Positions 1,006 through 51,488 of a stretch of DNA of 54,440 nt are shown piece by piece; within the stretch, counting starts at the first letter, position 1, and each line of letters opens with the position of its first letter. The notes under the pieces were generated by a model, which saw only the letters and a program-made list of their open reading frames with translations, did not search any database and was not told the DNA's origin. Source of the DNA: Acidithrix ferrooxidans (lineage in GTDB: Bacteria; Actinomycetota; Acidimicrobiia; Acidimicrobiales; Acidimicrobiaceae); the NCBI RefSeq assembly GCF_000949295.1, contig NZ_JXYS01000080.1:1-54440 (forward strand), in the 5' to 3' direction. A program made the translations under genes and the position numbers.

Positions 1006-2262
1006 TTATCCACACTCGATCAATTGTCGAACATCCAAAGATTCCACTACCGAAAGCGCTCGCTCAGCCGCTTCCTTCCAAGAGTATGTCCGTGCTTGCA
1101 TAAGAGCATTTCTGGCTATCATCGAAGACCGCTCACGAGTAGACAAAAGCTCCAACATCAAATTAGCAAACACACCGCCATTTCGCACAGGAGCCAATAG
1201 GCCTGTTCGGCCATGCGATATTAGGGACTTCAATCCGCCCACGCTTGAGGCTACAACGGGGGTTCCAGATGCCATTGCTTCTAGGGCTACTAATCCAAAT
1301 GACTCTGTACGCGATGGGACTACCACCAGGTTTGCGGCCCGATAGTAGCTTGCTAGGCGGATGTGAGGCTCTGGCTGTCGCCAGATAATCTTGTCCTCAA
1401 ATCCCTTGGATCTAGCCATATCGAAACAATAGTCAAGTTCAACCTCGCCTAGATGGCCCGAAGGTCCTCCAACTACCACAAAGCGGCTATTGGGAAAGTC
1501 ACTTAGGGTGCAAGAAAAGGCTTCGAAGGCAGTTGCAAGACCCTTGAGAGGCTGAATTCGGCCCACATAGAGGCTTATTGGATCGTTCTGAGGTAGCTCC
1601 ATTGCAGATCTAGCCATAGCCATATCTCCCGGCGCAAAATAGGCATGTTCAACGCCCAATGGCACAACAGCAATTCGCTCCGAAGCTAAACCCAAATACC
1701 TCTGAATATCGAGCGCCTCTTGGTCGCAGGAAGCGAGCACGAAGTCTGAACAACCGGCAATCTGATCCTCGGCATCCATCCGAAAGGATTCACTGACTCG
1801 ATCATCTGGAACCGTACGACCAATCGCTTTTATGGCTTCAATTGTGTGAAAAGTCGTAATCATCGGGACTTGATAGAAGTGCTTCAGTTTGTGGCCGACC
1901 AACCCTGAGATCCAATAATTTGAGTGCACGACATCAGGCTTAAGTGAACGGTCTATCTGAATTCTTGCGATCACATTTTCGGTGAACTCATCGACATATT
2001 CCAGCAGCTCGTCTTTATCAAGAGCCGCCAAAGGGCCTGCTGGGACATTGTGGACCCTTAGTCCAGGTTCGATTTCAATGCGAGCTGGATCGTCTTGCGA
2101 GGTCGCTCGCGTATAGATGTTAACGTCATTGCCGAGTCTCGCAAGGGCCGACGCTAATTGAAAAACATAGACATTCATTCCCCCGCCATCACCACTACCA
2201 GGCTGATCCAGCGGGGAACTATGGAGCGAAACTACGGCAAAATTGGTCATATAAAAACCCAC
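1006..2262 (-). CDS. mshA: MshA-like glycosyltransferase (D-inositol 3-phosphate N-acetylglucosaminyltransferase)
   Basis: This 418-residue GT-B fold, family 4 glycosyltransferase is the expected first enzyme of mycothiol synthesis, transferring GlcNAc from UDP-GlcNAc to 1L-myo-inositol 3-phosphate in the cytosol. The N-terminal loop has SLHSSPLDQPGSGDGGGMN, very close to the MshA acceptor/donor loop (SxHTSPLxQPGxGDxGGMNV). The GRIQPLKG donor motif sits near residue 235, and PSRTESFGLVALEAMASG gives the E-x7-E retaining GT4 motif. A GTG start at 2262 is preceded by GAGGT at a usable distance; an in-frame ATG four codons later is an alternative. A YbjN-like gene follows directly, as in other actinobacteria. 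A related sugar transferase cannot be excluded, but motif and neighbour both favour MshA. Confidence 0.8.
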   Translation of the reverse strand: MGFYMTNFAVVSLHSSPLDQPGSGDGGGMNVYVFQLASALARLGNDVNIYTRATSQDDPARIEIEPGLRVHNVPAGPLAALDKDELLEYVDEFTENVIARIQIDRSLKPDVVHSNYWISGLVGHKLKHFYQVPMITTFHTIEAIKAIGRTVPDDRVSESFRMDAEDQIAGCSDFVLASCDQEALDIQRYLGLASERIAVVPLGVEHAYFAPGDMAMARSAMELPQNDPISLYVGRIQPLKGLATAFEAFSCTLSDFPNSRFVVVGGPSGHLGEVELDYCFDMARSKGFEDKIIWRQPEPHIRLASYYRAANLVVVPSRTESFGLVALEAMASGTPVVASSVGGLKSLISHGRTGLLAPVRNGGVFANLMLELLSTRERSSMIARNALMQARTYSWKEAAERALSVVESLDVRQLIECG

Positions 2263-2579: not shown

Positions 2580-3161
2580 CTAATCCCCTGAAGTTTCGCC
2601 TTGAATTACCTTGTTCAAAAGGCTGTCGATGATCGAACCATCATCTCGATATCGAACCACCAGCTCAGCATGAATAGCATCTATACTCATAAACAGCTGC
2701 TTTCGCCACTCAGATAACTTCGTCTCCACCTGATTCAAACTAGAAAATTCAATAACTGAGTCCGGAGTAGGCTTTTCTAACGTGGTGCTTACTTGTGTCC
2801 TAGCGGCTGCGATCAATTCTAAAAGCTGAGCCTCGACTTCATCGATCTGGCCCTGACTAATCGAGACGTCAACAAAACGGCCATAAGATATTTGCCTGCC
2901 CCCTGAGTTGGGGGTAATAACATCACCGAGACGATCGACTGCCCCCGCATCGGCACTGGAGCCCTCTGCTGCCAAGGTCGTCGGATCGTACTCAAAAATT
3001 TCCATTCGCCCTTGGGTAATCCTCCGGGCGTAAGAGACCATTGCCTCGATGGCTTCAGCATCCTTCTTTCGAAGACGCAGTTCCTCGGTTGAAACCGAAT
3101 CAAGATCGGTATAAAACTTTAGATTTAGAATCCGCTCGATATCTGACTCAAGTCTTTGCAT
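2580..3161 (-). CDS. RsiG-like putative c-di-GMP-responsive anti-sigma factor
   Basis: This 193-residue soluble, helix-rich protein has a first helical region containing EELRLRKKDAEAIE followed by SYARRITQGRMEI. Residues E39, S43, R46, Q50 and E54 fit the spacing E-x3-S-x2-R-x3-Q-x3-D known as the c-di-GMP binding signature of Streptomyces RsiG, with Glu in place of the final Asp. RsiG is an anti-sigma factor that, armed by c-di-GMP, sequesters WhiG, the FliA-type sigma factor. Only one clear copy of the signature is visible; Streptomyces RsiG has two. A second amphipathic helix (about residues 100-125) and a C-terminal helix follow. The ATG at 3161 has no ribosome binding site but a TATAAT box 8 bp upstream, which suggests a leaderless transcript. 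The target sigma factor is not in the window. Family assignment is by motif, not alignment. Confidence 0.6.
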   Translation of the reverse strand: MQRLESDIERILNLKFYTDLDSVSTEELRLRKKDAEAIEAMVSYARRITQGRMEIFEYDPTTLAAEGSSADAGAVDRLGDVITPNSGGRQISYGRFVDVSISQGQIDEVEAQLLELIAAARTQVSTTLEKPTPDSVIEFSSLNQVETKLSEWRKQLFMSIDAIHAELVVRYRDDGSIIDSLLNKVIQGETSGD

Positions 3162-3169
3162 GATCTAAA

Positions 3170-3220
3170 ATTATAGACTTCAATAAGTTATTGGCATCAT
3201 TAAGGTGAGTCCAATGCCAA
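3170..3220 (-). promoter_or_regulatory. Putative promoter and operator of the RsiG-like gene
   Basis: On the minus strand TATAAT (3170-3175) lies so close to the ATG at 3161 that transcription would begin at or next to the start codon. An inverted repeat, TTGGCAT (3191-3197) and ATGCCAA (3214-3220), covers the expected -35 region. No good TTGACA box is present at the right distance, which may point to activator or repressor control. Confidence 0.4.
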
Positions 3221-3383: not shown

Positions 3384-3713
3384 CTATGTAGCTCGCCACA
3401 AACTTCGAAAGTTGGGCGAGTAGCAAAACCAGACTCGCCCCTGCAGGGAATCCGGCGAAACAACCCCAAATTGACGTGAGTCGATAGAAATACCTCGGTT
3501 ATCGCCCATCACCTCAAATGATCCATCTGAGAAAATCTTTGATACCCTCTTGACCATAAGCTCACTTGTGGCTTCAAAATCAGCTATCACAACTATTGCG
3601 CCTAGAGCTAGAGATCTTCGTCGAAAGATCCCAACGCAAAGGAGTCTCTCCTTTGGCATCAAAGTAGGAAGCATGCTCAATCCGGTAACCTCTACTCTAA
3701 AAACAGGTCTCAT
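3384..3713 (-). CDS. sodX: Nickel superoxide dismutase maturation protease (S26 family)
   Basis: This 109-residue signal-peptidase-like protease has a GLSMLPTL box containing the catalytic serine, a MVKRV box with the candidate catalytic lysine, then EVMGDNRG and an SIDSRQFG box, the S26 order of motifs. It is much shorter than the housekeeping signal peptidase and lacks an obvious N-terminal membrane anchor, as is usual for SodX. It is transcribed divergently from sodN, the presumed substrate, whose N-terminal propeptide must be removed to expose the nickel hook. The neighbour makes the specific role far more likely than general signal peptidase activity. Confidence 0.85.
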   Translation of the reverse strand: MRPVFRVEVTGLSMLPTLMPKERLLCVGIFRRRSLALGAIVVIADFEATSELMVKRVSKIFSDGSFEVMGDNRGISIDSRQFGVVSPDSLQGRVWFCYSPNFRSLWRAT

Positions 3714-3899: not shown

Positions 3900-4292
3900 T
3901 TGAAAATCAGAAAGACCTTGGCGCCACGAATCGCATCTGCGCATTGCGACCTTCCTTGTGGAGTTTACGATCCGGCGCAAGCCCGAATAGAAGCCGAATC
4001 AGTCAAAGCCTGCATGGAGAAGTTCAATGCATCCAGCGATGATGTCTTTCGCGAGCGTGCTGTCAGAATCAAAGAGGACCGAGCTGAACTCGTCAAGCAT
4101 CACCTCTGGGTTCTTTGGACTGACTACTTCAAACCAGCTCATCTAGAAGCACATCCAGATCTCCATCAGCTCTTTTGGTCTGCCACCAAGACCGCAGGCG
4201 AAGCCAAAAAAACTAATGACGTAGCAGTCGCCGAAAAATTGCTCTCAGAGATTGCCGCGATCGACACGATCTTTTGGGATACAAAGAAGTAG
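3900..4292 (+). CDS. sodN: Nickel-containing superoxide dismutase precursor
   Basis: The 130-residue precursor contains HCDLPCGVYDP at residues 15-25, the diagnostic nickel hook: after removal of the 14-residue propeptide, His1, Cys2 and Cys6 of the mature enzyme bind nickel. The mature length of 116 residues is close to the family's roughly 117. The enzyme forms a hexamer of four-helix bundles and dismutates superoxide to oxygen and hydrogen peroxide. The start is a TTG at 3900 preceded by GGAGG at good spacing; no ATG gives a sensible propeptide. sodX lies divergently upstream. A strong hairpin terminator follows at 4361. Confidence 0.95.
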   Translation: MKIRKTLAPRIASAHCDLPCGVYDPAQARIEAESVKACMEKFNASSDDVFRERAVRIKEDRAELVKHHLWVLWTDYFKPAHLEAHPDLHQLFWSATKTAGEAKKTNDVAVAEKLLSEIAAIDTIFWDTKK

Positions 4293-27528: not shown

Positions 27529-28467
27529 ATGACTCAGACTTCCTTCGACATCGCAAATGTCTCTAAAAAAAATAACAAGCGAGCTCCTAGAAACTTCGAC
27601 TTTCGCCAGCCGAAGTCTCTAGAGCGTAACCAACTTAGAACCCTCCAATTGATATTGGAGAGCTTTCTAAGGGCAGCTTCGTCGGTCCTATCTGCCAACC
27701 TTCGCATGCCATTTCGATTGAACATCGGCGAGTTAGAACAAAAGCCTTGGGAAGATGTAATCACAATTCTTGAAGATCCTGCGTCAATTGCAGTCTTTTC
27801 CCTCCCTCCATTGCCGTCAAAGGCTCTATGGCATATGCCAATTGAGCTTGTTATGCGTCTCATCGATATGCGACTTGGCGGAAACGGAAGAGGCGAAAAC
27901 CCAAGAAGATCTCTAAGCGACTTAGAACGGGTTATCGTTCGAAATCTCATCGAAGAGATGCTTGCCCAATTAATTCCGGCATTCGCCCCAATAACCCAAA
28001 TTTCAATAGGATCCATCCATCAAGAAGCATCCCTTCAATTTGTTCAGCTTGTATCGCTGTCTGAGATGTGCGTCTTGGCTCAAGTTGAGATGTCAATCTC
28101 AAATGACCCGCCAATTCAAACGGCTATCTGCCTACCATTTCCGCTACTTCGTCCCATCACTGACATATTAAACAATCGAGCCAACCCAGTAGAAGACGCG
28201 GCCGATACCACCTTAAGCCATGATTTAGAGGCTCGGCTATTTGACATTGAGGTAGAGGCAACGGTGGAATTCGAGCCAACGTCTCTTACCTCACGAGAGA
28301 TAGTCTCTCTTTCGGTCGGTGACGTGGTGCGATTGAAACATCGAAAAGGTAACCCTCTGAAAATAAAGGTCGATGGAACCTATCTTTACTGGGCTCAACC
28401 GACACAGGTCGGTAAACGAGTTGCCTGTCTATTAGTCGAACCGGAGGAGACAAATGACCGACATTAG
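27529..28467 (+). CDS. fliM: Flagellar motor switch protein FliM
   Basis: 312 residues: the FliM middle domain (about 30-220, CheC-like, with LRMPFRLNIGELEQ and MRLIDMRLGG) and a C-terminal SpoA domain (about 235-305, ending VGKRVACLL). It forms the C-ring middle with FliG and FliN. The N-terminal CheY-P binding motif (LSQ-x-EIDALL) is missing or very degenerate: only QTSFDIANV stands in that place. The start is ATG 27529. fliN begins 14 bp before its stop. It is first in the plus-strand flagellar operon. Confidence 0.9.
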   Translation: MTQTSFDIANVSKKNNKRAPRNFDFRQPKSLERNQLRTLQLILESFLRAASSVLSANLRMPFRLNIGELEQKPWEDVITILEDPASIAVFSLPPLPSKALWHMPIELVMRLIDMRLGGNGRGENPRRSLSDLERVIVRNLIEEMLAQLIPAFAPITQISIGSIHQEASLQFVQLVSLSEMCVLAQVEMSISNDPPIQTAICLPFPLLRPITDILNNRANPVEDAADTTLSHDLEARLFDIEVEATVEFEPTSLTSREIVSLSVGDVVRLKHRKGNPLKIKVDGTYLYWAQPTQVGKRVACLLVEPEETNDRH

Positions 28468-28789
28468 TACTGACTTTTCCGATACTAATCAAAATGGAAA
28501 CGAAAACTTTCTTGGGAAGAGACTTGAATCAGACCTTGGTCCGCTAGGGGTTATCCAAAATGTCGAGATGGAGATTACGGTCGAATTGGGTCGCGCCAAG
28601 ATGTCAGTTCGAGAACTCCTCTCCCTGACAAGCGGCGACGTCGTAGAGCTCGATCGCTTGGCCACCTCCCCAGTGGATGTTCTGGTGAATGGAACCCTAG
28701 TAGCCAGAGCAGAGGTAGTCGTCGTAGAAGACGAATTCGGCATACGTATCACCGAAGTGGTCGGCCGAGATGAGCGAAGCGACTCCTAG
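28454..28789 (+). CDS. fliN: Flagellar motor switch protein FliN
   Basis: 111 residues, mostly one SpoA domain (about 35-108) with VEMEITVELGRAKMSVRELL and LDRLATSPVDVLVNGTLVARAEVVVV, the FliN signature. It forms the lowest part of the C-ring and binds the FliH-FliI export ATPase complex. GGAGGAG precedes the ATG at 5 bp, so initiation should be strong although it overlaps fliM. Confidence 0.95.
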   Translation: MTDISTDFSDTNQNGNENFLGKRLESDLGPLGVIQNVEMEITVELGRAKMSVRELLSLTSGDVVELDRLATSPVDVLVNGTLVARAEVVVVEDEFGIRITEVVGRDERSDS

Positions 28790-28875
28790 CCAAGCGAGTC
28801 AACTTTATCACTTAATTTTTCTATTACTTTTCAAACACGGAAGAATCCAAACCCTGCCAAGGATCGGCTTATTTA

Positions 28876-28896
28876 GACATCGCGATATGCGATGTC
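28876..28896 (+). promoter_or_regulatory. Hairpin directly upstream of the fliO ribosome binding site
   Basis: GACATCGC-GATAT-GCGATGTC forms an 8-bp perfect stem ending where the fliO Shine-Dalgarno (AGGAGAG) starts. It lies in the 122-bp spacer between fliN and fliO, the only real gap in this half of the operon before flhB, and may set the ratio of C-ring to export-gate proteins. Confidence 0.45.
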
Positions 28897-28911
28897 AGGA
28901 GAGTTACTTCA

Positions 28912-29448
28912 ATGAGCATGGTCCTTCTAGCAGCACGAGTTGTTCTTTCCTTGGGAGCGACAATTGGAATCATCCTTCTCTTTTCAAAAATCTACCAAAA
29001 GCGAATGGTCAAAGGGACGCGACCCAAGCCCAAGCAGTTGCAGAATCTTGTCATCAAGAGTCGAATAACCATTGGGAAATCGAGCCAGATCGCCCTTGTA
29101 GAGTTCGGAGAGCACTCCTTTATCGTTGGAATCACGCCGTCCAACATCTCGTTAATCTCAAAGATAGAGGCCGAATCAAATGATGAAAGCTCCCATGAAG
29201 CCTTAGATGCCACAAACCTACTTGTCATGAAACCGCAAAAGCGCCAGGGTGGATATCAAGGTGAAGTTATCGACTTGACTGACGATGCAAATCAGCTCTC
29301 TAATAATAGCCTTGAGGATCTGACTGCACAGATCAGACAAAGCCAAGGTCGCTCAGGTACAAAACTTCGATTTGAAGAAGCTCTCGCTACCAAACTCTCC
29401 CAGAGCCTATTTAGTGGAACCCAAAGATTCACCAAGGCAAGCCGATGA
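28912..29448 (+). CDS. fliO: Flagellar biosynthesis protein FliO
   Basis: 178 residues with one N-terminal membrane helix (about 5-25) and the FliO core (about 45-85: SRITIGKSSQIALVEFGEHSFIVGITPSNI pattern). The remaining C-terminal tail is polar and low in conservation. FliO assists assembly of the FliP ring of the flagellar export gate. AGGAGAG precedes ATG 28912. It overlaps fliP by 4 bp (ATGA). Confidence 0.85.
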   Translation: MSMVLLAARVVLSLGATIGIILLFSKIYQKRMVKGTRPKPKQLQNLVIKSRITIGKSSQIALVEFGEHSFIVGITPSNISLISKIEAESNDESSHEALDATNLLVMKPQKRQGGYQGEVIDLTDDANQLSNNSLEDLTAQIRQSQGRSGTKLRFEEALATKLSQSLFSGTQRFTKASR

Positions 29449-30158
29449 CACCCATTCTCGCAGCCGCCGGTCTCATAACACCGACCACAACAACTCTTCC
29501 TACCGTCAGCATCAATCTAGGTAACACCCTCACAAAGCCAAGTCAGAGTATTATTGTCATTCTGCTGTTGAGCCTGCTTTCAATAGCACCATCGCTTCTA
29601 ATTATGATGACTAGCTTTGTCCGCATTATCATCGTCCTTTCCATTACCAAAAACGCCCTGGGCCTCTCAACGATCCCCCCAAGTCAGGTCCTGACAGGAC
29701 TTGCCCTATTTATGACATTCTTTATTATGGCGCCAACCTTCACCCAGATTAATAATGTTGCAGTCTCACCGTATCTAAACGGCAAAATATCAGCAGTGAC
29801 TGCATACAATGACGCCCAGGCGCCCCTGAAGACTTGGATGCTCAAACAAACTCGCACACCCGAGCTAGCGCTCTTTACACAGGTGACAAACCAACATCCC
29901 GCAAAGCCACAAGACATCTCAATGAGTGCATTGGTTCCGGCCTTCATGCTCTCTGAGCTCAAGTCTGCCTTCATTATTGGCTTCGTTATCTACATACCTT
30001 TTATGATCGTGGATCTGGTGGTCGCATCGATATTGATGTCAATGGGAATGATGATGATACCACCAACACTTATCTCTCTGCCCTTTAAACTTCTTTTATT
30101 TGTGCTGGTGGATGGCTGGACCCTGGTGGTTCATGGGCTACTGGTGAGCTTTCGGTGA
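29445..30158 (+). CDS. fliP: Flagellar export gate protein FliP
   Basis: 237 residues with an N-terminal signal-like segment and four membrane helices. The family signatures MMTSFVRIIIVLSITKNALG and PFMIVDLVVASILMSMGMMM are present. Five copies build the core of the export gate with FliQ and FliR. It overlaps fliO by 4 bp and fliQ by 4 bp (GTGA). Confidence 0.95.
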   Translation: MTPILAAAGLITPTTTTLPTVSINLGNTLTKPSQSIIVILLLSLLSIAPSLLIMMTSFVRIIIVLSITKNALGLSTIPPSQVLTGLALFMTFFIMAPTFTQINNVAVSPYLNGKISAVTAYNDAQAPLKTWMLKQTRTPELALFTQVTNQHPAKPQDISMSALVPAFMLSELKSAFIIGFVIYIPFMIVDLVVASILMSMGMMMIPPTLISLPFKLLLFVLVDGWTLVVHGLLVSFR

Positions 30159-30427
30159 CCGACTCTCAAGTAATAAATATTGCAGGACAAGCACTCTACC
30201 TAATTGGCAAGATCGCAGGGCCAGTTATGGTAGCAACCCTTGCAATCGGACTGATCGTCTCCTTTATCCAGGCGATAACGCAGATTCAAGAGCCAACTCT
30301 AACTTTTGTTCCAAAACTAGTCGTGGCGGCGGCCGTGCTATTTGTTGGGGGACATTGGATGATCGGCCAATTGATCTCCTTCACCGACTCGCTGTTTTCT
30401 CAACTACCTCAGCTACTGGCTGGATGA
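30155..30427 (+). CDS. fliQ: Flagellar export gate protein FliQ
   Basis: 90 residues with two membrane helices (about 17-40, 52-72) separated by the conserved FIQAITQIQEPTLTFVPK segment. It has a GTG start overlapping the fliP stop. Confidence 0.95.
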   Translation: MTDSQVINIAGQALYLIGKIAGPVMVATLAIGLIVSFIQAITQIQEPTLTFVPKLVVAAAVLFVGGHWMIGQLISFTDSLFSQLPQLLAG

Positions 30428-30431
30428 GACC

Positions 30432-31202
30432 GTGACGCTCTCTGAAGCATCCTTGCTCTTGTTGCTTGGCGCACTGCTTCGCATCGGAGCATTCGTTGCT
30501 GTCGCACCGCCATTTTCATCACAGCAGATCCCGGTCTCAGTTAGAGTCGGTCTCTCCTTGGCGATGGCACTTCCAGCAGCTCATCTCTTGGCAGTTCCAA
30601 GTGGGACATTTTCAAACCCCAACTCGACGCTAATCTTTCTGGTTGTACAAGTCGTATTAGGGCTGGCCCTTGGAGTCCTTGTCAACACATTGATATCGGC
30701 CTTTTCTAGCGCTGGCTTTCTTAGTGGTCTACTCGGTGGATTTTCACCTCCGCCTCAATTAGACCCACTGAGTTTAAACCAAAACTCTGGACTTGGCATC
30801 TTGTACGAGATGATCGCACTTATGCTCTTATTCACCTCAGGTGCCTACCTATTTATTCTAAAAGGACTATTTGTATCACTGAAGATCGCGATGCCAACCC
30901 ACATCTCATCCTCTGCGATTAGTCAACTAGTTATTAACAACTTCTCGACCTTCTTCGGAGCGACCCTGCAGATAGCAGCGCCAATTGCAGCGGTGGCCTT
31001 TACGGTCCAAATACTCTTATCCATCCTCTCTAAGGTCTCACCTTCGATCTCTATCTATGCACTCTCATTTCCCATTCAAATCTTGGCAACAATCCTGGTC
31101 GTCTCCTTGGTAATTTCGAATCTTCCTGGCTTTGTACAACTAATTAGTGGTGACTCGGTAACGACGATGATGAACTTCATGCGTTTGATCAACGGGGGGT
31201 GA
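30432..31202 (+). CDS. fliR: Flagellar export gate protein FliR
   Basis: 256 residues with about six membrane helices; conserved ALLRIGAFVAVAPPFSS and VRVGLSLAMAL near the start and a hydrophobic GF-rich middle. One copy completes the FliP5-FliQ4-FliR export gate. GTG start at 30432, four bases after the fliQ stop. A 23-bp stretch (31084-31106) is repeated exactly at 38545-38567 outside the gene. Confidence 0.95.
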   Translation: MTLSEASLLLLLGALLRIGAFVAVAPPFSSQQIPVSVRVGLSLAMALPAAHLLAVPSGTFSNPNSTLIFLVVQVVLGLALGVLVNTLISAFSSAGFLSGLLGGFSPPPQLDPLSLNQNSGLGILYEMIALMLLFTSGAYLFILKGLFVSLKIAMPTHISSSAISQLVINNFSTFFGATLQIAAPIAAVAFTVQILLSILSKVSPSISIYALSFPIQILATILVVSLVISNLPGFVQLISGDSVTTMMNFMRLINGG

Positions 31203-31206
31203 CCAG

Positions 31207-32340
31207 ATGGCCGCCGACAAGAAGAGTAAGACTGAAAAACCCACCGCTAAACGAATCAAAAAGGCGAGATCTGAGGGTAGTGTAGCAAAATCTCCGGAAT
31301 TATTTTCATGGTTTTCACTTTTAGCAGCGACGATTCTGATGCCAATCCTATTGGGACCTGCCGAACAAAAGATCGAGGTGCTCTTTTATACAATTCCTCG
31401 CGTAACCCTGAATCCAACGACAACAAGCACAACGGCCATGCTCAGCGATGGATTCAGCGCATTCGTATTGATTGTGGGTCCGATAATTGGAGGAGCAGCC
31501 CTTGTTGCTATCATCATTTCGGTTGCTCAAACGGGATTTGGTCTCTTCTATAAATCTATAACCCCTAAACTCTCCAAAGTCTCGCCCCTCAAGGGCATCA
31601 AGAAGATCTTTTCCCCATCTGGCCTCACAGAAGTGCTAAAGAGTTTTGTCAAGCTAGTTGTCGTGGTTGGGCTTGGCTATTCACAGGTTCATGGCCTCAC
31701 ATCTTTGCTCTCCACAAATTCAAATCTGGCAATTGGAAGCGTTACAACTGAAACGGCCGGTATTGTCCTAGGAGCTGCCAGAATGATAGCAGGATTTGGT
31801 CTAGTAATAGCCGTAGCCGACTATGCCCGTCAGAAAAAAATGCTTACCAAAAGCTTAAAGATGACCAAACAAGAGGTCAAAGAGGAAAACAAAGACGATC
31901 AAGGCGATCCAACCGTAAAAGGTAGAATCAGAAGAATGCAGATGCAAATGTCCAGGCAGAGGATGATGGCTGCAATAGCAAAATCAACTGTTGTGGTGGT
32001 AAATCCAACCCACTTTGCAGTCGCCCTCTCTTACAACCCCAAGATCTCACCGGCGCCTAGGGTCGTAGCCAAAGGAAAAGATAACATAGCGCTCCTGATA
32101 AAGGAACGAGCAAGCCAAAATCATGTTCCGATCGTTCGCGACGCACCATTAGCTCGCGCACTCTATGTTTCCACGAAGATTGACGATCAAATTCCATTTG
32201 TGCTTTATAAGGCCGTTGCTAAGCTGATCGCATTCGTCTTCAAGCTATCTGCCTTTGCTAAAAGCCAAGAGATGAGCCACACAACTCCGAGCGCAGAGAT
32301 CCCCAATGAACTATTAATCAAAGCGGATTCAATTGCCTAG
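31207..32340 (+). CDS. flhB: Flagellar export switch protein FlhB
   Basis: 377 residues with a Lys-rich N-terminus (EKPTAKRIKKARSEGSVAKS), four membrane helices and a cytosolic domain containing NPTHFAVAL, in which Asn266-Pro267 is the self-cleavage site that switches export from rod/hook to filament proteins. GGGGGGTGA precedes the ATG. It ends the first part of the plus-strand flagellar block; a 540-bp spacer follows. Confidence 0.95.
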   Translation: MAADKKSKTEKPTAKRIKKARSEGSVAKSPELFSWFSLLAATILMPILLGPAEQKIEVLFYTIPRVTLNPTTTSTTAMLSDGFSAFVLIVGPIIGGAALVAIIISVAQTGFGLFYKSITPKLSKVSPLKGIKKIFSPSGLTEVLKSFVKLVVVVGLGYSQVHGLTSLLSTNSNLAIGSVTTETAGIVLGAARMIAGFGLVIAVADYARQKKMLTKSLKMTKQEVKEENKDDQGDPTVKGRIRRMQMQMSRQRMMAAIAKSTVVVVNPTHFAVALSYNPKISPAPRVVAKGKDNIALLIKERASQNHVPIVRDAPLARALYVSTKIDDQIPFVLYKAVAKLIAFVFKLSAFAKSQEMSHTTPSAEIPNELLIKADSIA

Positions 32341-32508
32341 GCGACACCTCTATGGGCAACCAACTATCGCGATTGGCACTGGAGGTAGGCAAAAGATCGA
32401 TCTAAAGAGCGTCCAAGAGGGCTAACCTACTATCACATCGATTTGAAATATCACGGATCAAATTGAGATATCGCTACGTGAAGTAAAAGCCCCTAGAACC
32501 CAGACTAT

Positions 32509-32541
32509 CTATAGTCGACCTATAGTCGACCTATAGTCGAC
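32509..32541. repeat. Three-copy 11-bp tandem repeat
   Basis: CTATAGTCGAC three times in succession (32509, 32520, 32531), all identical. Each unit contains the palindrome GTCGAC, so the array could bind a protein in tandem or form alternative hairpins. Confidence 0.95.
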
Positions 32542-32576
32542 TAACCAGAGCTCGCCTAGGTCCGTCCATTCAAAAA

Positions 32577-32618
32577 GATTGTCTCTTTGGGATCGTCTCT
32601 TTGGGATCGTCTCTTTAA
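32577..32618. repeat. Three-copy 14-bp tandem repeat
   Basis: GATCGTCTCTTTGG-type units start at 32577, 32591 and 32605; the first has one substitution and the last ends in AA rather than GG. It lies 35 bp from the previous array but is unrelated in sequence. Confidence 0.9.
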
Positions 32619-32878
32619 AGCAAGCGAGGCGGCCAAAGTGCCGTCCTTAGAAAAAGAATCAAACGAAATCTAAAACCAAAGATCGACTTCTACCTCAGGT
32701 CAACAAAGTCTCGACTTTCAATCAAAGTTAGTTCGAGGGGGCTCAACGCTAAAGGCAAAAACGCTCTACGGCAAATAAATTGACCTTGGTCACAAGGCCT
32801 CAGATTCCTCTATTTACTTTGGCGCTGTAATCGGGTGCTTATCTCTGCCTGGTTGATTCAGTCCCTTTTTCAAAGACT

Positions 32879-33895
32879 CTATCCTGTGGACTCCTCAAGT
32901 TCACTGAGTGCAAGACAGAGCGAGCGAAATTCTACTACCCGAGCTCGATCGAACTCACACCCCGAAGGATCGATGACTTGGTCCACGCCTTCTAGAAAGT
33001 CCAATGCATCGTGTGGTTGACCGGCTTGAGCCAAAGCCTGGGCGCACAACCAATTGCAATATCGCTCTTCACCACCACGCTGGCGTAGCGAGATCGCCAA
33101 GCTTATGCAATAGCGGAACCTTCCAAGGGCAAGATATTGGCGTGCTAGAAAGTCAGTAGCGCACATCCAAAGTTGCGGGTCTCTAGCGGTGCCCCGAGCT
33201 TGCTCAAAATATTCACAAGACTCTTCTCTACGGCCTAAAGTGACTAAACTGCGCCCAACTTCGAAGGCCTTTTGCGCAAGGAGGTTTTGATCGAACGAGA
33301 ACTCTTGGTGATCTAACAAGTCACGAAGAGCCAGGGTATAATTTCGCTCACCTTTAACCAAACAATCATCCTCATTTTGATAGCCAACGTCAATAATCTT
33401 CATTATCGACGACTCCAAAAAAGAGACCACTGGTTCAAAGCCATCTGGGGTCAAAACCTTCTCATGAACCCGATTAAACCAGCGAAGTTCCGTCCTGGTA
33501 AAGAGCCGTGGAGCTCGAAAAGAGTAATCTCCTCCAAAGCTAGTTGCGCTTTTCACTTCTATATCAATCAAATAAGCTTGAGTACCTCTTGGATATCTAA
33601 GCGCAAAGTCCAAAGCGTCCCAATTTACTTCCACCCATTCGTCTGCATCGATGCTCAAAATCCACTCCGACGAGGCGAGATCTAGCGCTGCATTTCTGGC
33701 GAGGGCAAAGTCGTCTTTCCAGGAGACCGAAAAAACCTTGGCACCAAAACCCTGCGCAATCTCAACTGTACGATCATTCGAACCGGTATCTACGACCACG
33801 ATCTCATCGACATGGCCATAGACAGAGCTCAGACACCTCTCCAGGTGGATCTCTTCATTTTTTGTTATAAGACATGCGCTTATGGTCTTGACCAT
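32879..33895 (-). CDS. Family 2 glycosyltransferase with TPR-like C-terminal region
   Basis: 338 residues. The N-terminal GT-A domain (about 1-210) has SACLITKNEEIHLERCLSS, VVVDTGSNDRT (donor-binding Asp) and LSIDADEW (the DxD equivalent), and a RLFTRTELRWFNRVHEKV segment typical of the SunS/WaaE-like group that modifies peptides or proteins. The C-terminal part (about 225-335) consists of short helical pairs resembling TPR repeats. It is antisense within the flagellar locus, between flhB and flhA, with its own unassigned promoter. Its place suggests glycosylation of flagellin or another flagellar protein, but flagellin is not in the window and the target is unknown. Confidence 0.75.
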   Translation of the reverse strand: MVKTISACLITKNEEIHLERCLSSVYGHVDEIVVVDTGSNDRTVEIAQGFGAKVFSVSWKDDFALARNAALDLASSEWILSIDADEWVEVNWDALDFALRYPRGTQAYLIDIEVKSATSFGGDYSFRAPRLFTRTELRWFNRVHEKVLTPDGFEPVVSFLESSIMKIIDVGYQNEDDCLVKGERNYTLALRDLLDHQEFSFDQNLLAQKAFEVGRSLVTLGRREESCEYFEQARGTARDPQLWMCATDFLARQYLALGRFRYCISLAISLRQRGGEERYCNWLCAQALAQAGQPHDALDFLEGVDQVIDPSGCEFDRARVVEFRSLCLALSELEESTG

Positions 33896-34200
33896 ATTTT
33901 AATTATTCGACCTAACAACGAGGAGACTTGAATAGCATTTAACGGCGACGATTTAGATCGCGATCCTAGCCATTTTGCCCTTCTGCGGCTGGTGCACCTT
34001 GGTTGGATTCCAACTGGCCCGACCCAAGAGATAAAATACATTGATTGATCGCCAACTCTAGCAATCGAAGACGAAGCTCAAAGTAAATCAAGTAAAAATT
34101 TTAGTCAGACCTTCAAGCTGTCGAAAATTATTGAAAGCCAGGACGGCTCTTTGGAACTTAACCATGATGGTTGCGTAAGAACGCGATGTGAGGATAAGTC
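33896..34200. other. Divergent intergenic region between the glycosyltransferase and flhA
   Basis: No supported gene. It must contain the promoters of both divergent genes, but no convincing FliA/WhiG or housekeeping promoter pair can be assigned; GTCGAAAA near 34120 lacks a fitting -35. Confidence 0.4.
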
Positions 34201-36252
34201 TTGAAGGCTGGTAAATGGACGCTCTTTGGTGTTCCCTTGGCAATCGTAGCGATCGTTGTCATGTTGGTGGTACCTATACCATCGATACTTTTGGACATCT
34301 TGATATCTATCAACATAACCTTTGCCGTGCTCGTGCTAATGATGGCGATACGAGTGAAATCAGTCTTGGAATTTTCTGCCTTTCCATCGGTCTTGCTCAT
34401 CGCTACGGTCTTTCGCCTTGCGCTCAATATAAGCGCCACACGCCTAGTTCTCCTGCATGGATTCGCTGGATCCGTTATTGAAAGTTTTGGCCACTTTGTC
34501 GTCGGTGGCTCGATCGTTGTCGGCCTAGTAATCTTCTTTATCCTCTTCATCATCCAGTTCGTTGTAATTACAAATGGTGCCGGAAGAGTCGCTGAAGTCG
34601 CAGCTCGATTCACACTCGATGCAATGCCTGGAAAGCAGATGGCAATCGACGCCGACCTAAATGCAGGCCACATCAATGAGGCTGAAGCACGATTGAGAAG
34701 AGAAAAGATCTCAAAAGAGGCTGACTTCTACGGAGCTATGGATGGCGCATCGAAGTTTGTAAAAGGCGATGCCATCGCAGCCGTCATAATCACGATGATA
34801 AACCTTATAGGTGGATTTACCGTAGGCGTACTACAGAATCATCTTGGGCTCACTCAGGCGATTTCTACCTACTCGCTCCTGAGCGTTGGAGACGGTTTAG
34901 TCTCACAGATTCCGGCTCTATTGCTCTCAGTTTCAACTGGCCTTATCGTAACCAGATCAGCTGGAGAAAACGACTTTGGTTTAGACCTACTATCGCAATT
35001 CAAATCTCAAAAACATGCTATGACCATGGCTGGAGGTATCATCGCCGGCCTTGGAATCCTCCCAGGACTTCCGAAGCTCCCATTTATACTCGTTGGTTCA
35101 GTTGTCTATATAATTGGTCGTCGAAACAACGCACAAGCTGACGCTAGCGCCAAGGTGGAAAAAGAAGAGCCAAAGGTAATAGCTCCGCTTCCACTTGACA
35201 CCCCAGAAGCCCTTATGAACACTATGAAGGTGGAACCTCTCACTCTGGAACTTGCAATTGATCTTTTGGATCTATTGGATACTCCCATGGGTGGCGACCT
35301 TTTGGATCGCGTTCGAGGCCTTCGTCGCAAGATTGCAAATGAACTAGGGCTTGTCCTCCCACCGGTAAGAACTAGAGACAACATAGAGCTAGCCATGACT
35401 GAATATGCGATCTCAGTCCATGAAGTACAAGTCGCAAAAGGACGAGCCCCTCAAGGGCGATCTCTAGCAATCGGAGGCGATCTCCATCTAATCCCGGGCG
35501 AGATGGATAAAGAACCAGTCTTTGGCCTTGAGGCCAAGTGGATCCCCTCTTCAATGAAGCAACAGGCCATGATGATGGGTGCGACAGTTGTCGACCGCTC
35601 GTCAGTAATTACCACCCACCTCTCCGAGGTGGTAAAACGTCACGCAGGCGAACTACTCTCACGACAACAAGTCAAAGAACTCATAGACGCTATCAAAAAA
35701 GGAAATGAGGCGGTTGTAGAGGAGTTGGGAGCAGCTGGCATAAACCTCTCGGAAGTACAGCGAACCCTAAAAGATATCCTCGACGAAGGCGTCCCGATTC
35801 GCGATCTCACACGAATCTTAGAAGCTATCACCGAAAGAGCTCGTGTGAGTCGCGATCCCGATAACCTCCTCGAAGCCGCAAGAGTGGCGCTTGGCCCGTC
35901 GATAGTCTCACTAAAACTCACCGATGGCGAGCTGCCTATGATCACACTGGACGGCCTTGTAACCACGCATTTGATGGAAACGCTCAAAATTACAGAGGCT
36001 GGTCTGACCCTTGGAGCCGACCCCACATATGTTAGACGAGTTGTCGACGAGGTGGGAGCGATATTTGCAGACTCAGAAACCAAGGGAAAGTCCCCGGTTC
36101 TAGTCGTCCAACCCAAGCTTAGGGCAGCGACCTACCGAACCATACACCCTCTAATACCTCGATTAAGCGTCATTTCGACCGCCGAACTGGGTGGTTCATA
36201 CCGCCCCAATCTGATAGGAGTAGTGAGCCTTGTCAACGCTTCAGCAATTTGA
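34201..36252 (+). CDS. flhA: Flagellar export apparatus protein FlhA
   Basis: 683 residues with eight N-terminal membrane helices, the FHIPEP signature region (about 105-160: FVVITNGAGRVAEVAARFTLDAMPGKQMAIDADL) and a large cytosolic domain (about 330-683) that forms the nonameric ring receiving chaperone-substrate complexes. The start is TTG 34201 with GAGGA at 8-bp spacing. The downstream FlhF-like gene overlaps its end by 23 bp. Confidence 0.95.
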   Translation: MKAGKWTLFGVPLAIVAIVVMLVVPIPSILLDILISINITFAVLVLMMAIRVKSVLEFSAFPSVLLIATVFRLALNISATRLVLLHGFAGSVIESFGHFVVGGSIVVGLVIFFILFIIQFVVITNGAGRVAEVAARFTLDAMPGKQMAIDADLNAGHINEAEARLRREKISKEADFYGAMDGASKFVKGDAIAAVIITMINLIGGFTVGVLQNHLGLTQAISTYSLLSVGDGLVSQIPALLLSVSTGLIVTRSAGENDFGLDLLSQFKSQKHAMTMAGGIIAGLGILPGLPKLPFILVGSVVYIIGRRNNAQADASAKVEKEEPKVIAPLPLDTPEALMNTMKVEPLTLELAIDLLDLLDTPMGGDLLDRVRGLRRKIANELGLVLPPVRTRDNIELAMTEYAISVHEVQVAKGRAPQGRSLAIGGDLHLIPGEMDKEPVFGLEAKWIPSSMKQQAMMMGATVVDRSSVITTHLSEVVKRHAGELLSRQQVKELIDAIKKGNEAVVEELGAAGINLSEVQRTLKDILDEGVPIRDLTRILEAITERARVSRDPDNLLEAARVALGPSIVSLKLTDGELPMITLDGLVTTHLMETLKITEAGLTLGADPTYVRRVVDEVGAIFADSETKGKSPVLVVQPKLRAATYRTIHPLIPRLSVISTAELGGSYRPNLIGVVSLVNASAI

Positions 36253-38765: not shown

Positions 38766-39623
38766 CTAACCTAGATTCGGAAGCGTAGTCAAGGTCGGCG
38801 CTAAAGAGGTGGCCGTAGAAGAGAGACTCGTCGATATCGTCGTGTTGAGGATCAAGATATCAACTCGTCGATTTTCCATCATGTTAGCTGGGGTGGTATT
38901 TGGAAGCAATGGCCGGGTGGATCCATATCCAGTTGCGCTCAAGCGCGAAGCCAAAATATGATCGTTCTTCACTAAATACTCAAGCACGTTCACGGCACGC
39001 ATGGCCGATAATTCCATATTAGAGCTGTAAGGTCCTCCTACAATTGGCTGGTTATCGGTGTTACCTTGAATAACTACATTATTTGGAATCGGTGCAATCA
39101 CCGAGGCGACGGCATCCAAAATCTTGGTTCCACCAGGCTGAACGTTGGCAGAATCAACGGCGAAAAATACCTTATCCGTCAGAATCCTAACAATAACTCC
39201 TTGGGAGCTTGTCAAAACACTTACCGAAGAAGAAAGTCCAGATGACGCGATCGATCTGCTCAACTGGCGTTCTAAGCTAACAGTCGCATTAGAGGAGCTC
39301 GAATTTGATGAGGACGAGATCGTAGCCTTAGCTGACGAATTGCCAGGACTCGATATAAGTGAATTCGCTTGTAAAATTCCAGTTCCTCCCGCTTGTAGGG
39401 AGTTTATTTGAGGAGAAAATGCAGAGATCACACCAGTCCTAAATTCATTAAATTTCTTTACACTGATAGAACTCATAGCAAAAAGAACCACAAATAGAGC
39501 AAGCAAAAGAGTAATCATATCGGCATATGTCAGTAGCCAACGTTCAGAGTGCTCACCAACTTCTTCCTCGTGCTTTTTCTTTCCTCGATGAAGTGCAGGA
39601 GCAGTATGTCCCTTAACGCTCAT
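38766..39623 (-). CDS. motB: Flagellar motor stator protein MotB
   Basis: 285 residues from ATG 39623, four bases after the motA stop; the longer frame to 39668 would overlap motA and adds only a basic stretch. A single membrane helix (about 30-54, WLLTYADMITLLLALF) carries Asp35, the proton-binding residue. A linker rich in Ser/Asn follows, then an OmpA-like peptidoglycan-binding domain (about 155-270, FFAVDSANVQPGG...NRRVDI). Plain H-type motor residues are consistent with a proton-driven stator, fitting an acidophile, but ion choice is an inference. Confidence 0.95.
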   Translation of the reverse strand: MSVKGHTAPALHRGKKKHEEEVGEHSERWLLTYADMITLLLALFVVLFAMSSISVKKFNEFRTGVISAFSPQINSLQAGGTGILQANSLISSPGNSSAKATISSSSNSSSSNATVSLERQLSRSIASSGLSSSVSVLTSSQGVIVRILTDKVFFAVDSANVQPGGTKILDAVASVIAPIPNNVVIQGNTDNQPIVGGPYSSNMELSAMRAVNVLEYLVKNDHILASRLSATGYGSTRPLLPNTTPANMMENRRVDILILNTTISTSLSSTATSLAPTLTTLPNLG

Positions 39624-39627
39624 CTTT

Positions 39628-40425
39628 TTATGCTGCCTTCTTCTTAGAAGCCGCTTTTGCAGCTTCAAGCGCTTCTCGGTCTTTTGGCGCCAAATAGGTC
39701 AAGAGTTGCTGTTCGACAATTCGAGGAGCAGATCCCTCTTGAATTGCCAATATCCCATCAAGAGTCAATTGCTTGGCTTTGACTTCTAACTCTCCCATGC
39801 GATGAAGTTTGCCTTCGATTGGAAGCCAGATCACATTAGCAGTCATAACACCCCAAAGGGTTGCGGTAAAGGCTGCCGAAATTGCGGGCCCTAGAGTGCT
39901 AGGGTTAGAAAGGTTCTGCAGAACATGGACCAAGCCCATAACTGTTCCCAAAATACCAATCGTAGGTGCATATCCTCCCATGTCCTTGAAGATCTTTCCC
40001 GCAGCCTTATGCCGTGCCTTCATCGAGTCGATATCGCCCTCTAAAATCATCCGAATTACCTCCGGATCGGAGCCATCCACAACCATTTGAAGGCCCTTTT
40101 TCATAAAGGGATCCTCTATGTCTTTTGCCGCAGATTCCAGCACTAATAGGCCTTCCTTGCGTGCAACCTCTGCGTATTTGACTAAATCGGCTATCGACTC
40201 CTCTGCCACTGGAGCCTTTGCTAACATTGCAGATTTGATTCCACCGATCAACATAGACATATCTTTAAGACGGACCGTCGCCATAGTAACGCCGATCGTG
40301 CCTCCAAAGATCAAAAGCATTGAAGACGGAGCGATCAGCGATGCAGGATTGCCCCCGTCCATTATCATCGAAACCATAATTGCCACTAAGGCAACTCCAA
40401 TTCCGATTGGTGTTGCGAAATCCAT
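39628..40425 (-). CDS. motA: Flagellar motor stator protein MotA
   Basis: 265 residues with four membrane helices (two near the N-terminus, two at about 145-205) and the cytosolic loop between helices 2 and 3. Signature GGYAPTIGILGTVMGLVHVLQNL is present. MotA4-5/MotB2 units form the ion channel of the stator. flbD ends 2 bp before it. Confidence 0.95.
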   Translation of the reverse strand: MDFATPIGIGVALVAIMVSMIMDGGNPASLIAPSSMLLIFGGTIGVTMATVRLKDMSMLIGGIKSAMLAKAPVAEESIADLVKYAEVARKEGLLVLESAAKDIEDPFMKKGLQMVVDGSDPEVIRMILEGDIDSMKARHKAAGKIFKDMGGYAPTIGILGTVMGLVHVLQNLSNPSTLGPAISAAFTATLWGVMTANVIWLPIEGKLHRMGELEVKAKQLTLDGILAIQEGSAPRIVEQQLLTYLAPKDREALEAAKAASKKKAA

Positions 40426-41163: not shown

Positions 41164-42441
41164 CTACATCTGAACCAACGACTGAAGGACCATGGAAGTT
41201 GTTGAAACCACTTTAGTGTCAGCCTGGTAGGCAGTTTGGGCGACTATCAGGTTCGATAGTTCAGTTCCAAGGCTGACGTTAGAGTTTTCCAAAGAACCAC
41301 CTAGAAGTTGCCCTCGACCACCAGTACCAGGAGTACCAAGTTGGGCAGTTCCAGAGTTCAAGGTGGATTGATAATTTAGATTACCCACCTTGGTTAGGCC
41401 ATTTTCATTGGCAAAGTTTGCCATTGCGATAACTCCCAAAGATTGCGTCTTACCGTTTGCATAAGTACCAGTTACCGTCCCGTCAGACCCAATGGAGAAG
41501 TTCTGCAAGGTTCCAGAAGGATATCCATCTTGAGAAGCAACCGCTATCGTACTTGATCCAGAAAACTGAGTTACAGCCCCTGTCGTCCCAGCGGCCGGAA
41601 AGTCCAAATTCATTCCCGCCGTCGGCACGCTATAGGATGTTGGAAAACCCGTCAACGGTATTGGAGTCGTTGACGTCATTTGCCCGGTGGTCGGAACAAA
41701 GGTAATCGTACCGCTCCCTAGGGAGGTGGTGCCTCCCGTTGTACTTCCTGGCGTCGGCGTGGTTACCTTTACGCCATAGCTATCTGCCGTCCCCGATGTG
41801 GCTGTAAATGTAACCGTAATTGGTATCTGATTGCCAAGGCTATCATACGCTGTAGTCGTAGCTGTATAGCTTGGCTGCGTGGTAACCGTAGCTCCGTTCC
41901 AAGCAGGGAGGTTTCCCCCCAAGGTTATATTCGCTGTAGCTGCTGGATTTGCAGCTTGGCCCTGAGGTATTGATAGGGGCCCTGTCGGTCCTGTAGTTAA
42001 GATAGTACCCCCTGCAGTCGTTGGGGACCAGCCTTGGATCAGTGCTCCAGTTTGAGTAACGAGCTGACCGTTGGCATCAAGCTTCAAATTACCAGCTCTG
42101 GTGTAGTAAGTTTGGCCATTTTGTTGAGCTACCAAGAAGCCCGTTCCTTGAATTGCAACGTCAGTCGGACTTCCGGTTTGAACATTTGTACCTTCAGTAA
42201 AATTAGTACTTGTGCTACTGACACGAACACCGCTACCGACAAAGATTGGGTTTACGCCACCCGTTACTCCAGTCTGCGGCGCTCCAGCAGGAGCTACCTG
42301 CTGATTTAAAAGGTCTGCGAACTGGACACTTGTGTCTTGGTATCCAACCGTATTGACGTTTGCAATGTTGTTACCGACATTATCAAGCATTGTCTGTGCG
42401 GCATCTATTCCTGATATAGCAGCGGATAAAGAACGAGTCAT
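41164..42441 (-). CDS. flgE: Flagellar hook protein FlgE
   Basis: 425 residues. The N-terminal rod/hook motif (SGIDAAQTMLDNVGNNIANVNTVGYQ) and the C-terminal motif (ELSNLIVAQTAYQADTKVVST) form the coiled-coil core domains D0/D1; ALIQGW and FSIGSDGTVTGTYANGKTQSLG are FlgE features. The middle region (about 170-330) is Thr/Gly/Pro-rich and variable. It builds the hook. It is last in the long minus-strand operon, followed by a terminator. Confidence 0.95.
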   Translation of the reverse strand: MTRSLSAAISGIDAAQTMLDNVGNNIANVNTVGYQDTSVQFADLLNQQVAPAGAPQTGVTGGVNPIFVGSGVRVSSTSTNFTEGTNVQTGSPTDVAIQGTGFLVAQQNGQTYYTRAGNLKLDANGQLVTQTGALIQGWSPTTAGGTILTTGPTGPLSIPQGQAANPAATANITLGGNLPAWNGATVTTQPSYTATTTAYDSLGNQIPITVTFTATSGTADSYGVKVTTPTPGSTTGGTTSLGSGTITFVPTTGQMTSTTPIPLTGFPTSYSVPTAGMNLDFPAAGTTGAVTQFSGSSTIAVASQDGYPSGTLQNFSIGSDGTVTGTYANGKTQSLGVIAMANFANENGLTKVGNLNYQSTLNSGTAQLGTPGTGGRGQLLGGSLENSNVSLGTELSNLIVAQTAYQADTKVVSTTSMVLQSLVQM

Positions 42442-42520
42442 TCGGCTTGCCTTTCTAATTTAATTGTTGGTCGAATTGAAATACTTATGATTAATAAATG
42501 GATAACTAAGAGAGCAAGAT

Positions 42521-43084
42521 CTAAGAGACTGAGCTGACGCTTGCGAGTGGCACGGATTGAGAACCAACATTTAAATTTGGCCCACTTGCTGTTACGGAGA
42601 CAGAAGATACCAAACCCGAAAAAGGTGTTCCATTGGATAATGTACCCGAAACCGTCTTACCGATCATCGACGTCGACGCCATCACCCCCATCTCCTGGTT
42701 CGTTTGAGCTGACGATGTTTGAACCGCTTGAAGCGCCTGAACCATCGTAAGTTGTGCAGTTTGAGTTACAAAGGTAGTCGGATTTGTTGGATTCAGGGGG
42801 TTTTGATTCTGCAGCTGTGCGACTAATAGTTGCAAAAACTCACTCGAATTCATCGAAGCAATCGCATTGGTCGAAGTTGCACTCGAACCACCCGACGAGG
42901 ACGAACTTGGTGTCGTCGAAGTGGATGACGTAGTAGGCGTCGTCGTAGAAGTACTGGTAGGCGTGGTACTGGTAGGCGTCGTCGAGGTTGAAGTGGTGGT
43001 TGTGGGTGATGCGATCGAGCTAAAGGTCGGCATCGCAGGTGGGATGATCGGTGGTATCGCCGGTATCGATGAAATAGATGACAT
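42521..43084 (-). CDS. flgD: Flagellar hook capping protein FlgD
   Basis: 187 residues. The first 75 residues are Pro/Ser/Thr-rich with repeated TSTTP units. The conserved N-terminal FlgD core follows (about 78-120: SSEFLQLLVAQLQNQNPLNP...TQTAQLTMVQALQ). The C-terminal Tudor/Fn3 cap domains are reduced to about 50 residues. It acts as scaffold for hook growth. Confidence 0.9.
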   Translation of the reverse strand: MSSISSIPAIPPIIPPAMPTFSSIASPTTTTSTSTTPTSTTPTSTSTTTPTTSSTSTTPSSSSSGGSSATSTNAIASMNSSEFLQLLVAQLQNQNPLNPTNPTTFVTQTAQLTMVQALQAVQTSSAQTNQEMGVMASTSMIGKTVSGTLSNGTPFSGLVSSVSVTASGPNLNVGSQSVPLASVSSVS

Positions 43085-43129
43085 TAATTTCCTTCTCTCA
43101 AAAAATAGATAGTTCTCTCATTAGTCACT

Positions 43130-51025: not shown

Positions 51026-51044
51026 TTTAGTACCTAACTATTTC

Positions 51045-51446: not shown

Positions 51447-51488
51447 GGTAGTCTTTCTCGGTAAATAATTTAGGAAACTTTTCGCTTA

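Follow-up and report, generated by a model that had tools for sequence, protein, structure and literature searches.

A twin-motif RsiG in a flagellated actinobacterium, with flagellin and chemoreceptor genes as candidate targets of its partner WhiG

The window, that is, the whole stretch of 54,440 nucleotides analyzed here, comes from a genome of 4.02 Mb in 183 contigs (G000, the host) and carries near its start an ORF for an anti-sigma factor, two runs of flagellar genes, and the motor genes between them (Table 1). The anti-sigma gene adjoins an mshA-like glycosyltransferase gene and is followed on its other side by a gene for an S26 signal peptidase-like protein, which we take to be sodX-like, beside sodN. 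The order sodN-S26 peptidase-rsiG-mshA is common to two members of the family, at positions 1006-4292 of the window and at L171:5152-8001, as read from the ORFs of that locus. The adjacency of mshA and rsiG recurs elsewhere in the class (G084, G107, G036, G020, G024, and L171), and the pair is kept in further families. In another locus of the set, L006:334-793, short tandem repeats produce overlapping repetitive reading frames. Among the flagellar genes, the fliJ-like gene falls below the Pfam cut-off, and the flgC-like gene is recognized by the rod C-terminal domain only. An integrase-core (rve) ORF, probably a transposase, stands at the end of the window (53383-54321). Linkage between rsiG and the flagellar genes was considered and set aside: 24 kb with unrelated genes separate rsiG from fliM, and in G190, a genome of one contig, more than 1 Mb lies between rsiG and flhA, so that linkage is not used as evidence.

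Table 1. Coordinates of the genes, motifs, and candidate promoter site in the window
Feature	Position	Strand	Basis or remark
mshA-like glycosyltransferase, adjoins rsiG	1006..2262	(-)	Pfam GT4
rsiG, 193-aa twin-motif RsiG anti-sigma	2580..3161	(-)	Pfam PF22802, phmmer and profile against 6pfj_T
Motif 2, helix alpha5: E146 S150 R153 F157 D161	2679..2726	(-)	67 alignment rows reaching the site
Motif 1, helix alpha1: E39 S43 R46 Q50 E54	3000..3047	(-)	68-row alignment
S26 signal peptidase-like gene beside sodN	3384..3713	(-)	Pfam Peptidase_S26
sodN, nickel superoxide dismutase	3900..4292	(+)	Pfam Sod_Ni, 150.8 bits
Weak candidate WhiG/FliA-type site TGAAGATT-N12-GCCGAAAA	27489..27516	(+)	40 nt before fliM, score 20 of 23
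fliM, fliO, fliP, fliR, flhB, flhA	27529..36252	(+)	Pfam
Glycosyltransferase ORF within the flagellar run	32879-33895	opposite strand	Pfam
motA, motB	38766..40425	(-)	Pfam
flgE, flgD, fliK, NlpC/SLT gene, fliJ-like, fliI, fliH, fliG, fliF, fliE, flgC-like	41164..51932	(-)	Pfam

The first-pass annotation, made from the letters of the DNA, had proposed an RsiG-like protein at this ORF and suggested a search with RsiG family models. Such a search matches PF22802 (RsiG) in two stretches with 55.4 bits, where the cut-off is 27, and RsiG is the sole Pfam family that the 193-residue ORF matches at E<=1; at the same threshold the protein gives no match to FlgM (PF04316). A genome-wide scan with the profile (36.7 bits against the cut-off of 27) returns one RsiG in the genome; G218 of the survey described below has two RsiG matches, on separate contigs (G218:C110 and G218:C138). 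When compared with solved structures by phmmer, the protein matches the Streptomyces venezuelae RsiG, chain T of 6pfj (deposited, as in 6pfv, under the name AmfC protein), along residues 18-182 at E 2.3e-8; for the Rubrobacter RsiG structures E is about 0.05-0.08. A profile built from 16 relatives brings these values to 2.6e-31 for 6pfj_T and about 2e-10 for the Rubrobacter proteins. The phmmer and profile values together place the match beyond chance, and, judged from its sequence, the ORF is a genuine RsiG with a full-length match to the solved Streptomyces protein. An AlphaFold model of the protein, from a two-row alignment, reached a pLDDT of 39.8 and was too poor for use.

The sequence context from which RsiG had been recognized (LRxRKxDxEAxE...SYxRRxxQGRM) is present in the ORF, the five signature residues of motif 1 are as they had been read, and the glutamate in place of aspartate at position 54 is real. 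On the other hand, the statement that there is only one copy of the signature did not hold. A second motif lies in the C-terminal part of the protein and aligns with the second motif, on helix alpha5, of S. venezuelae RsiG, in keeping with the two stretches of the Pfam match. The protein thus has two motifs of the form E(X)3S(X)2R(X)3[Q/H](X)3D with one substitution in each (E54 and F157), 8 of the 10 residues being strict, and it does not belong with the single-motif homodimers, since its second helix and motif align with alpha5 of the Streptomyces protein. When residues 61-193 were shuffled at constant composition, 430 of 20,000 shuffles reached four of the five motif residues, so it is the alignment of homologues, and not the pattern alone, that carries the claim of a second motif. 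Being of the twin-motif kind, the protein should work as, and is probably, a monomer. Twin-motif RsiGs are known from three of four Acidimicrobiales, among other groups, and the single-motif ones come from Rubrobacteria and Thermoleophilia (Schumacher et al. 2021, PMC8325347). The RsiG of the window is thus ordinary as a member of its family; its interest lies in its probable output.

The genome's whiG or fliA, which the first-pass annotation had suggested seeking, is present as a single gene. One sigma factor of 262 bits lies over the FliA_WhiG cut-off, and the next three, at 108, 92, and 83 bits, lie below it. Its gene stands between xerC and rpsB-tsf-pyrH-frr, names that were read from the translated ORFs. 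Among solved structures the sigma factor matches best the WhiG bound to RsiG in the S. venezuelae complex (E 3e-86). The residues of that protein which touch c-di-GMP are K57, G61, and R62 (PMC8325347). The host equivalents are K40, G44, and R45, so that the genome that encodes RsiG also encodes a WhiG with all three contacts kept. Among 28 WhiGs of the family the triplet reads KGR in 9, KSR in 10, and RSR in 9; in other words, the equivalent of G44 is Ser in 19 of the 28 and that of K40 is Arg in 9. As the only sigma factor over the cut-off, WhiG is most likely also the flagellar sigma factor of this organism, a member of the family Acidimicrobiaceae. FlgM, in turn, gives no match in the host genome at E<=1, a very lax setting at which 11 of 14 control genomes give a match, 3 of them over the cut-off. 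The genome further has 23 GGDEF matches, of which two neighboring ones on contig C29 may be one broken gene.

The first-pass annotation had also spoken of flagellar operons with WhiG/FliA-type promoters, a claim that proved right for flagellin, on another contig, and not for the operons of the window. The published WhiG consensus comprises TAAA and GCCGATAA (PMC8325347). The weights with which we scored sites build on an E. coli FliA consensus in extended form and were chosen once the first matches had been seen. With up to two mismatches the window holds 15 sites against 12.4 expected, and the genome, with up to one mismatch and a spacing of 15, holds 57 against 54 for a reversed-pattern control; there is no enrichment in either, and site enrichment was dropped as evidence. 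Upstream regions reach p<=0.01 for 3 of 19 flagellar genes in the window (fliM, fliP, and fliE) and for 3 of 21 other genes, from which it follows that shuffling yields overly lenient p-values in this genome, that single p-values are not to be trusted, and that the three flagellar sites do not rise above background. With 100 shuffles motA also had reached p<=0.01; with 500 it stands at 0.038 and the other three remain. The fliM site, which has a similarly placed counterpart in one of four relatives, and which non-flagellar genes of the window approach with scores of up to 19, is no longer counted as support. WhiG/FliA-like sites scoring 18.5-19 stand before three such genes (18346-19980, 21939-22901, and 19990-21168), which include one for a sortase and one for an epimerase; they may be background or mark further WhiG targets.

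Flagellin stands apart from these genes. Upstream of the host flagellin lies, on contig C27 at about 83764-83790, the site TAAAGTTC-N11-GCCGAGAT, one of the 57 genome-wide sites, which has one mismatch to the consensus and ends 109 nt before the flagellin match. Its score of 21.0 exceeds those of all 40 upstream regions of the window, where the maximum is 20.0 (fliM) and the non-flagellar maximum is 19.0. Flagellin thus has a promoter of the TAAA(GTTT)...GCCGATAA type expected of the FliA/WhiG regulon. Across 23 flagellin loci of the family the mean score is 18.6, against 14.6 for shuffles (sd 0.25; none of 200 sets reaches the observed mean) and 14.3 for the reverse strand, whereas 18 rsiG upstream regions, scored as a control from 30 loci, average 14.3, the same as their own shuffles (14.3). 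The 23 were drawn from 30 flagellin loci, after L096, L097, L105, L107, L110, and L111 were dropped for want of a start and L090 as too short; five of these seven represent all the flagellin-bearing genomes of genus g109. On later rescoring, L110, a weak flagellin match (E 2.3e-8), gave 14.5, L090 has 43 nt upstream, and L111 was not found; with four g109 flagellins added (27 loci) the mean falls from 18.6 to about 18.1. In nine genomes examined gene by gene the flagellin site is high in all nine, with p<=0.01 in eight and 0.1 in G134. At p<=0.01 the same nine genomes give flhA in 2 of 3, fliM in 2 of 5, fliP in 2 of 4, fliE in 1 of 2, and motA in 1 of 5, and none for fliF, fliG, fliI, flgC, flgE, or motB. 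Because the shuffle test is generous, we claim a WhiG-type promoter for flagellin alone among the flagellar genes of these genomes. No other WhiG-type signal found in the family is as strong or as well conserved as the one at flagellin.

Among the genome-wide sites, 20 of the 57 were inspected as loci. Two of them precede similar genes for methyl-accepting chemotaxis proteins (L126, with no mismatch, and L140, with one), the site beginning 64-67 nt before the ATG in both; the two genes score 74 and 76 bits for MCPsignal. At the genome-wide rate of sites, the chance of finding one in a 120-nt stretch before any given gene is about 0.00085. One further site, at G000:C76:11750-11776, also with one mismatch, has its end about 280 nt upstream of a weak match to the GGDEF domain and could possibly be a feedback target of the kind proposed in Rubrobacter.

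As the genome has a single WhiG and an RsiG with both motifs, carries a WhiG-type promoter at flagellin, and gives no match to FlgM, a c-di-GMP switch is the simplest model. We lean, with some reserve, toward a mechanism in which c-di-GMP-loaded RsiG would hold WhiG and so switch off flagellin and chemoreceptors in the place of FlgM. The two RsiG helices would pair as an antiparallel coiled coil to which a dimer of c-di-GMP binds, and the loaded protein would capture WhiG and keep it from RNA polymerase. At high c-di-GMP, flagellin and at least two chemoreceptor genes would then be off and no filament would be made; as c-di-GMP falls, WhiG would be set free, filaments built, and swimming begun. 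RsiG would in this way fill the post of FlgM, and the export-coupled checkpoint would be replaced by one set by a second messenger. The binding of c-di-GMP, the binding of WhiG by RsiG, and control in the living cell are here presumed by extension from Streptomyces and Rubrobacter.

The nearest known system is the S. venezuelae RsiG-(c-di-GMP)2-WhiG complex (6pfj/6pfv). The host proteins resemble it in the twin-motif RsiG of similar length, with the signature or close variants of it on both helices, in the full-length profile match, and in the WhiG orthologue with its K/G/R contacts. They differ in the Glu that ends motif 1 and the Phe at the stacking position of motif 2; moreover, the host has flagella, and what was found favors flagellin and chemoreceptors over sporulation genes as targets. 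The single-motif homodimer of Rubrobacter radiotolerans (7lq2-7lq4) shares the motif 1 helix and a WhiG partner in a non-sporulating bacterium, but it has one motif where the host RsiG has two, dimerizes, and has type IV pili as its proposed output; in the excerpted text of a 2023 survey of actinobacterial flagella no flagellated Rubrobacteria are reported (PMC10746217). With the FlgM-FliA (sigma-28) checkpoint the likeness is operational, in that an anti-sigma factor acts on a FliA-type sigma factor that drives flagellin (PMC4255298). RsiG belongs to another family, however, and would be gated by c-di-GMP and not by flagellar export.

Motile actinobacteria have been described as having WhiG and lacking a FlgM-like protein, with the role of WhiG in motility unanalyzed and an early part for WhiG in biofilm dispersal suggested (Chandra and Chater, PMC4255298). 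According to the 2023 survey, classes without FlgF/FlgG also lack FlgM, flagellated species have more GGDEF proteins, and studies of c-di-GMP in the phylum have concerned non-motile genera (PMC10746217). The excerpted text of that survey, which cites the 2021 RsiG paper, draws no link between RsiG and flagella, a term search finds no flagella or motility terms in a 2026 Streptomyces paper in which RsiG appears (PMC13232838), and no proposal that RsiG controls flagella was found among the titles and abstracts listed from the open-licence literature. Hence, while the RsiG-WhiG pair was already known, a flagellar output for it was not found in print. The gap left by the missing anti-sigma factor in motile actinobacteria has been on record since 2013, and RsiG acting on WhiG is a concrete and testable candidate to fill it; if true, flagellar gene expression would be tied directly to c-di-GMP via an anti-sigma factor. 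We count in favor of a flagellar output that Acidimicrobium ferrooxidans is described as motile, rod-shaped, and nonsporulating (PMC3035218).

How far this output extends can be judged from 198 genomes of the class, whose counts are given as they stand, every genome being counted whether or not it is related to another. RsiG is found in 122, FliA/WhiG in 128 (E<=1e-40), FlhA in 30, and FlgM in 20 (15 over the cut-off). RsiG and WhiG occur together in 119 genomes, RsiG only in 3, WhiG only in 9, and neither in 67. All 30 FlhA genomes, two of them with short matches (G121 and G192), have both RsiG and WhiG, and 3 have a FlgM match. Nevertheless, among the 123 genomes with a strong WhiG, a table that leaves out five with a weak or partial sigma match only, RsiG is present in 30 of 30 flagellated genomes and in 89 of the other 93 (p 0.57), which is no clear excess, and 92 of the 122 RsiG genomes have no FlhA match. 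RsiG follows WhiG with or without flagella, and the regulon is therefore not solely flagellar: RsiG belongs to WhiG, and what WhiG controls can be other than flagellar. The first-pass suggestion that the ancestral role of the switch may be control of motility finds no support in the same counts. The broader form of that idea, that in flagellated actinobacteria without FlgM RsiG came to replace FlgM as the restraint on the only flagellar sigma factor, with c-di-GMP and not export through the basal body gating filament and chemoreceptor expression, and that sporulation in Streptomyces and the pilus in Rubrobacter are later re-uses of a motility switch, can be put forward only tentatively, as a possibility that we would doubt sooner than accept. 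FlgM was tried as a contrast for flagella and rejected, as 17 of its 20 class matches (15 over the cut-off) lie in genomes without FlhA. These FlgM-like matches, for example G133:C156:12077-12184 and G036:C24:57334-57432, may be real FlgM or other WhiG partners; 19 of the 20 genomes have RsiG.

The family of 42 genomes gives a similar picture. RsiG was found in 30 by a search with the single query P0001, flagellin in 31, and WhiG over the cut-off in 28. The query missed G014, which the Pfam profile found and which is counted as RsiG-positive, so that RsiG and flagellin occur together in 22 genomes, or 23 with G014. Eight genomes have RsiG without a flagellin match (G200, G201, G205, G209, G221, G222, G223, and G229). 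With G014 set aside, 8 of the 31 flagellin-bearing genomes have no RsiG match, namely G199, which has WhiG, G198 and G219, which are 71-76% complete, and five of g109. In a rival reading RsiG does restrain WhiG but the main regulon is other than flagellar, for example type IV pili, surface proteins, or c-di-GMP enzymes, with flagellin as a minor or lineage-specific member. The RsiG genomes that lack FlhA or a flagellin match speak for it, as do the Rubrobacter pair, for which control of type IV pili has been proposed (PMC8325347), and the site before the GGDEF match on C76. Against it stand the flagellin promoter, stronger and more conserved than any other found, and the two chemoreceptor genes with a site, though with 20 of the 57 sites inspected further targets may have escaped notice. 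On balance we regard this reading as rather unlikely.

The genus g109 bears on the partnership of the two proteins. Its flagellin-bearing genomes have neither an RsiG match nor a strong WhiG, and within the genus both an RsiG match and a strong WhiG are confined to G229; this joint loss fits the partnership, within a small sample of incomplete genomes. In three genomes of the genus (G236:C91, G232:C13, and G234:C192) a sigma factor of 131-168 bits lies on the same contig as the flagellin match, and two divergent g109 sigma factors have the contact triplets KNR and RNR. The flagellins L096, L097, L105, and L107 have a constant site 95-96 nt before the start, of the type TCAACTTT-N11/12-[GT]CC[CG]-TAG/TAAG, that departs from the FliA consensus; they score 15.5, 16.5, 15.0, and 15.0, respectively, with p of 0.06-0.42, and none beats its shuffles at 0.05. 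The changed promoter, noticed in hindsight, would agree with a change of sigma factor, given that these genomes have no strong WhiG and no RsiG match.

The two substitutions in the motifs raise the question of whether the host RsiG still responds to c-di-GMP. The alignment has 68 rows (66 loci, P0001, and an S. venezuelae fragment), in which the host protein (P0001 and L052) and the G036 protein (L016 and L045) are each entered twice and L062 is truncated before motif 2. In motif 1 the residues are E in 64 and D in 4, S in 68, R in 68, Q in 59 and H in 9, and D in 61 and E in 7. Motif 2 is reached by 67 rows, all of which keep its E, S, and R; position 157 is H in 43, F in 17, Q in 6, and Y in 1, and position 161 is D in 62 of the 67. 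The 7 rows with Glu at position 54 represent 6 distinct proteins, the others being L037, L039, L043, L047, and L049 of family f27, and Phe stands at position 157, the Gln/His stacking position, in all rows of the host's own genus that reach it. The changes at positions 54 and 157 could lower c-di-GMP binding. An RsiG insensitive to c-di-GMP, and thus a constitutive or differently gated anti-sigma factor, would agree with the loss of one guanine-recognizing Asp and one stacking Gln/His, one in each motif (roles from PMC8325347). The other eight motif residues are intact, though, and the occurrence of Glu54 in five f27 proteins and of an aromatic residue at 157 in 18 of 67 rows marks both as natural variants; an aromatic ring could still stack, and WhiG keeps its own contacts to c-di-GMP. 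We therefore hold an insensitive RsiG to be quite improbable, and the c-di-GMP switch on WhiG remains the preferred reading.

That RsiG acts instead on a second, dedicated flagellar sigma factor draws on the 23 of 30 flagellated class genomes with two or more FliA-type matches and on six f27/f31 genomes with a second factor 20-32 kb from rsiG, but it is very improbable, as neither the host nor any other family genome has two matches over the cut-off, and the six f27/f31 factors lack all three WhiG contacts to c-di-GMP (QSE, QTE, GTE, or GAE in their place). The host is among the 7 of the 30 FlhA genomes with a single FliA-type sigma factor. In 12 of the 42 family genomes a second, weaker match of 111-125 bits falls below the cut-off; we read these as probable general sigma factors, because Corynebacterium and other controls without flagella also match at that level. 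The second FliA-like sigma genes of f27/f31 are L038, L040, L044, L046, L048, and L050, and in G084 a second FliA-like sigma gene stands directly before flhA.
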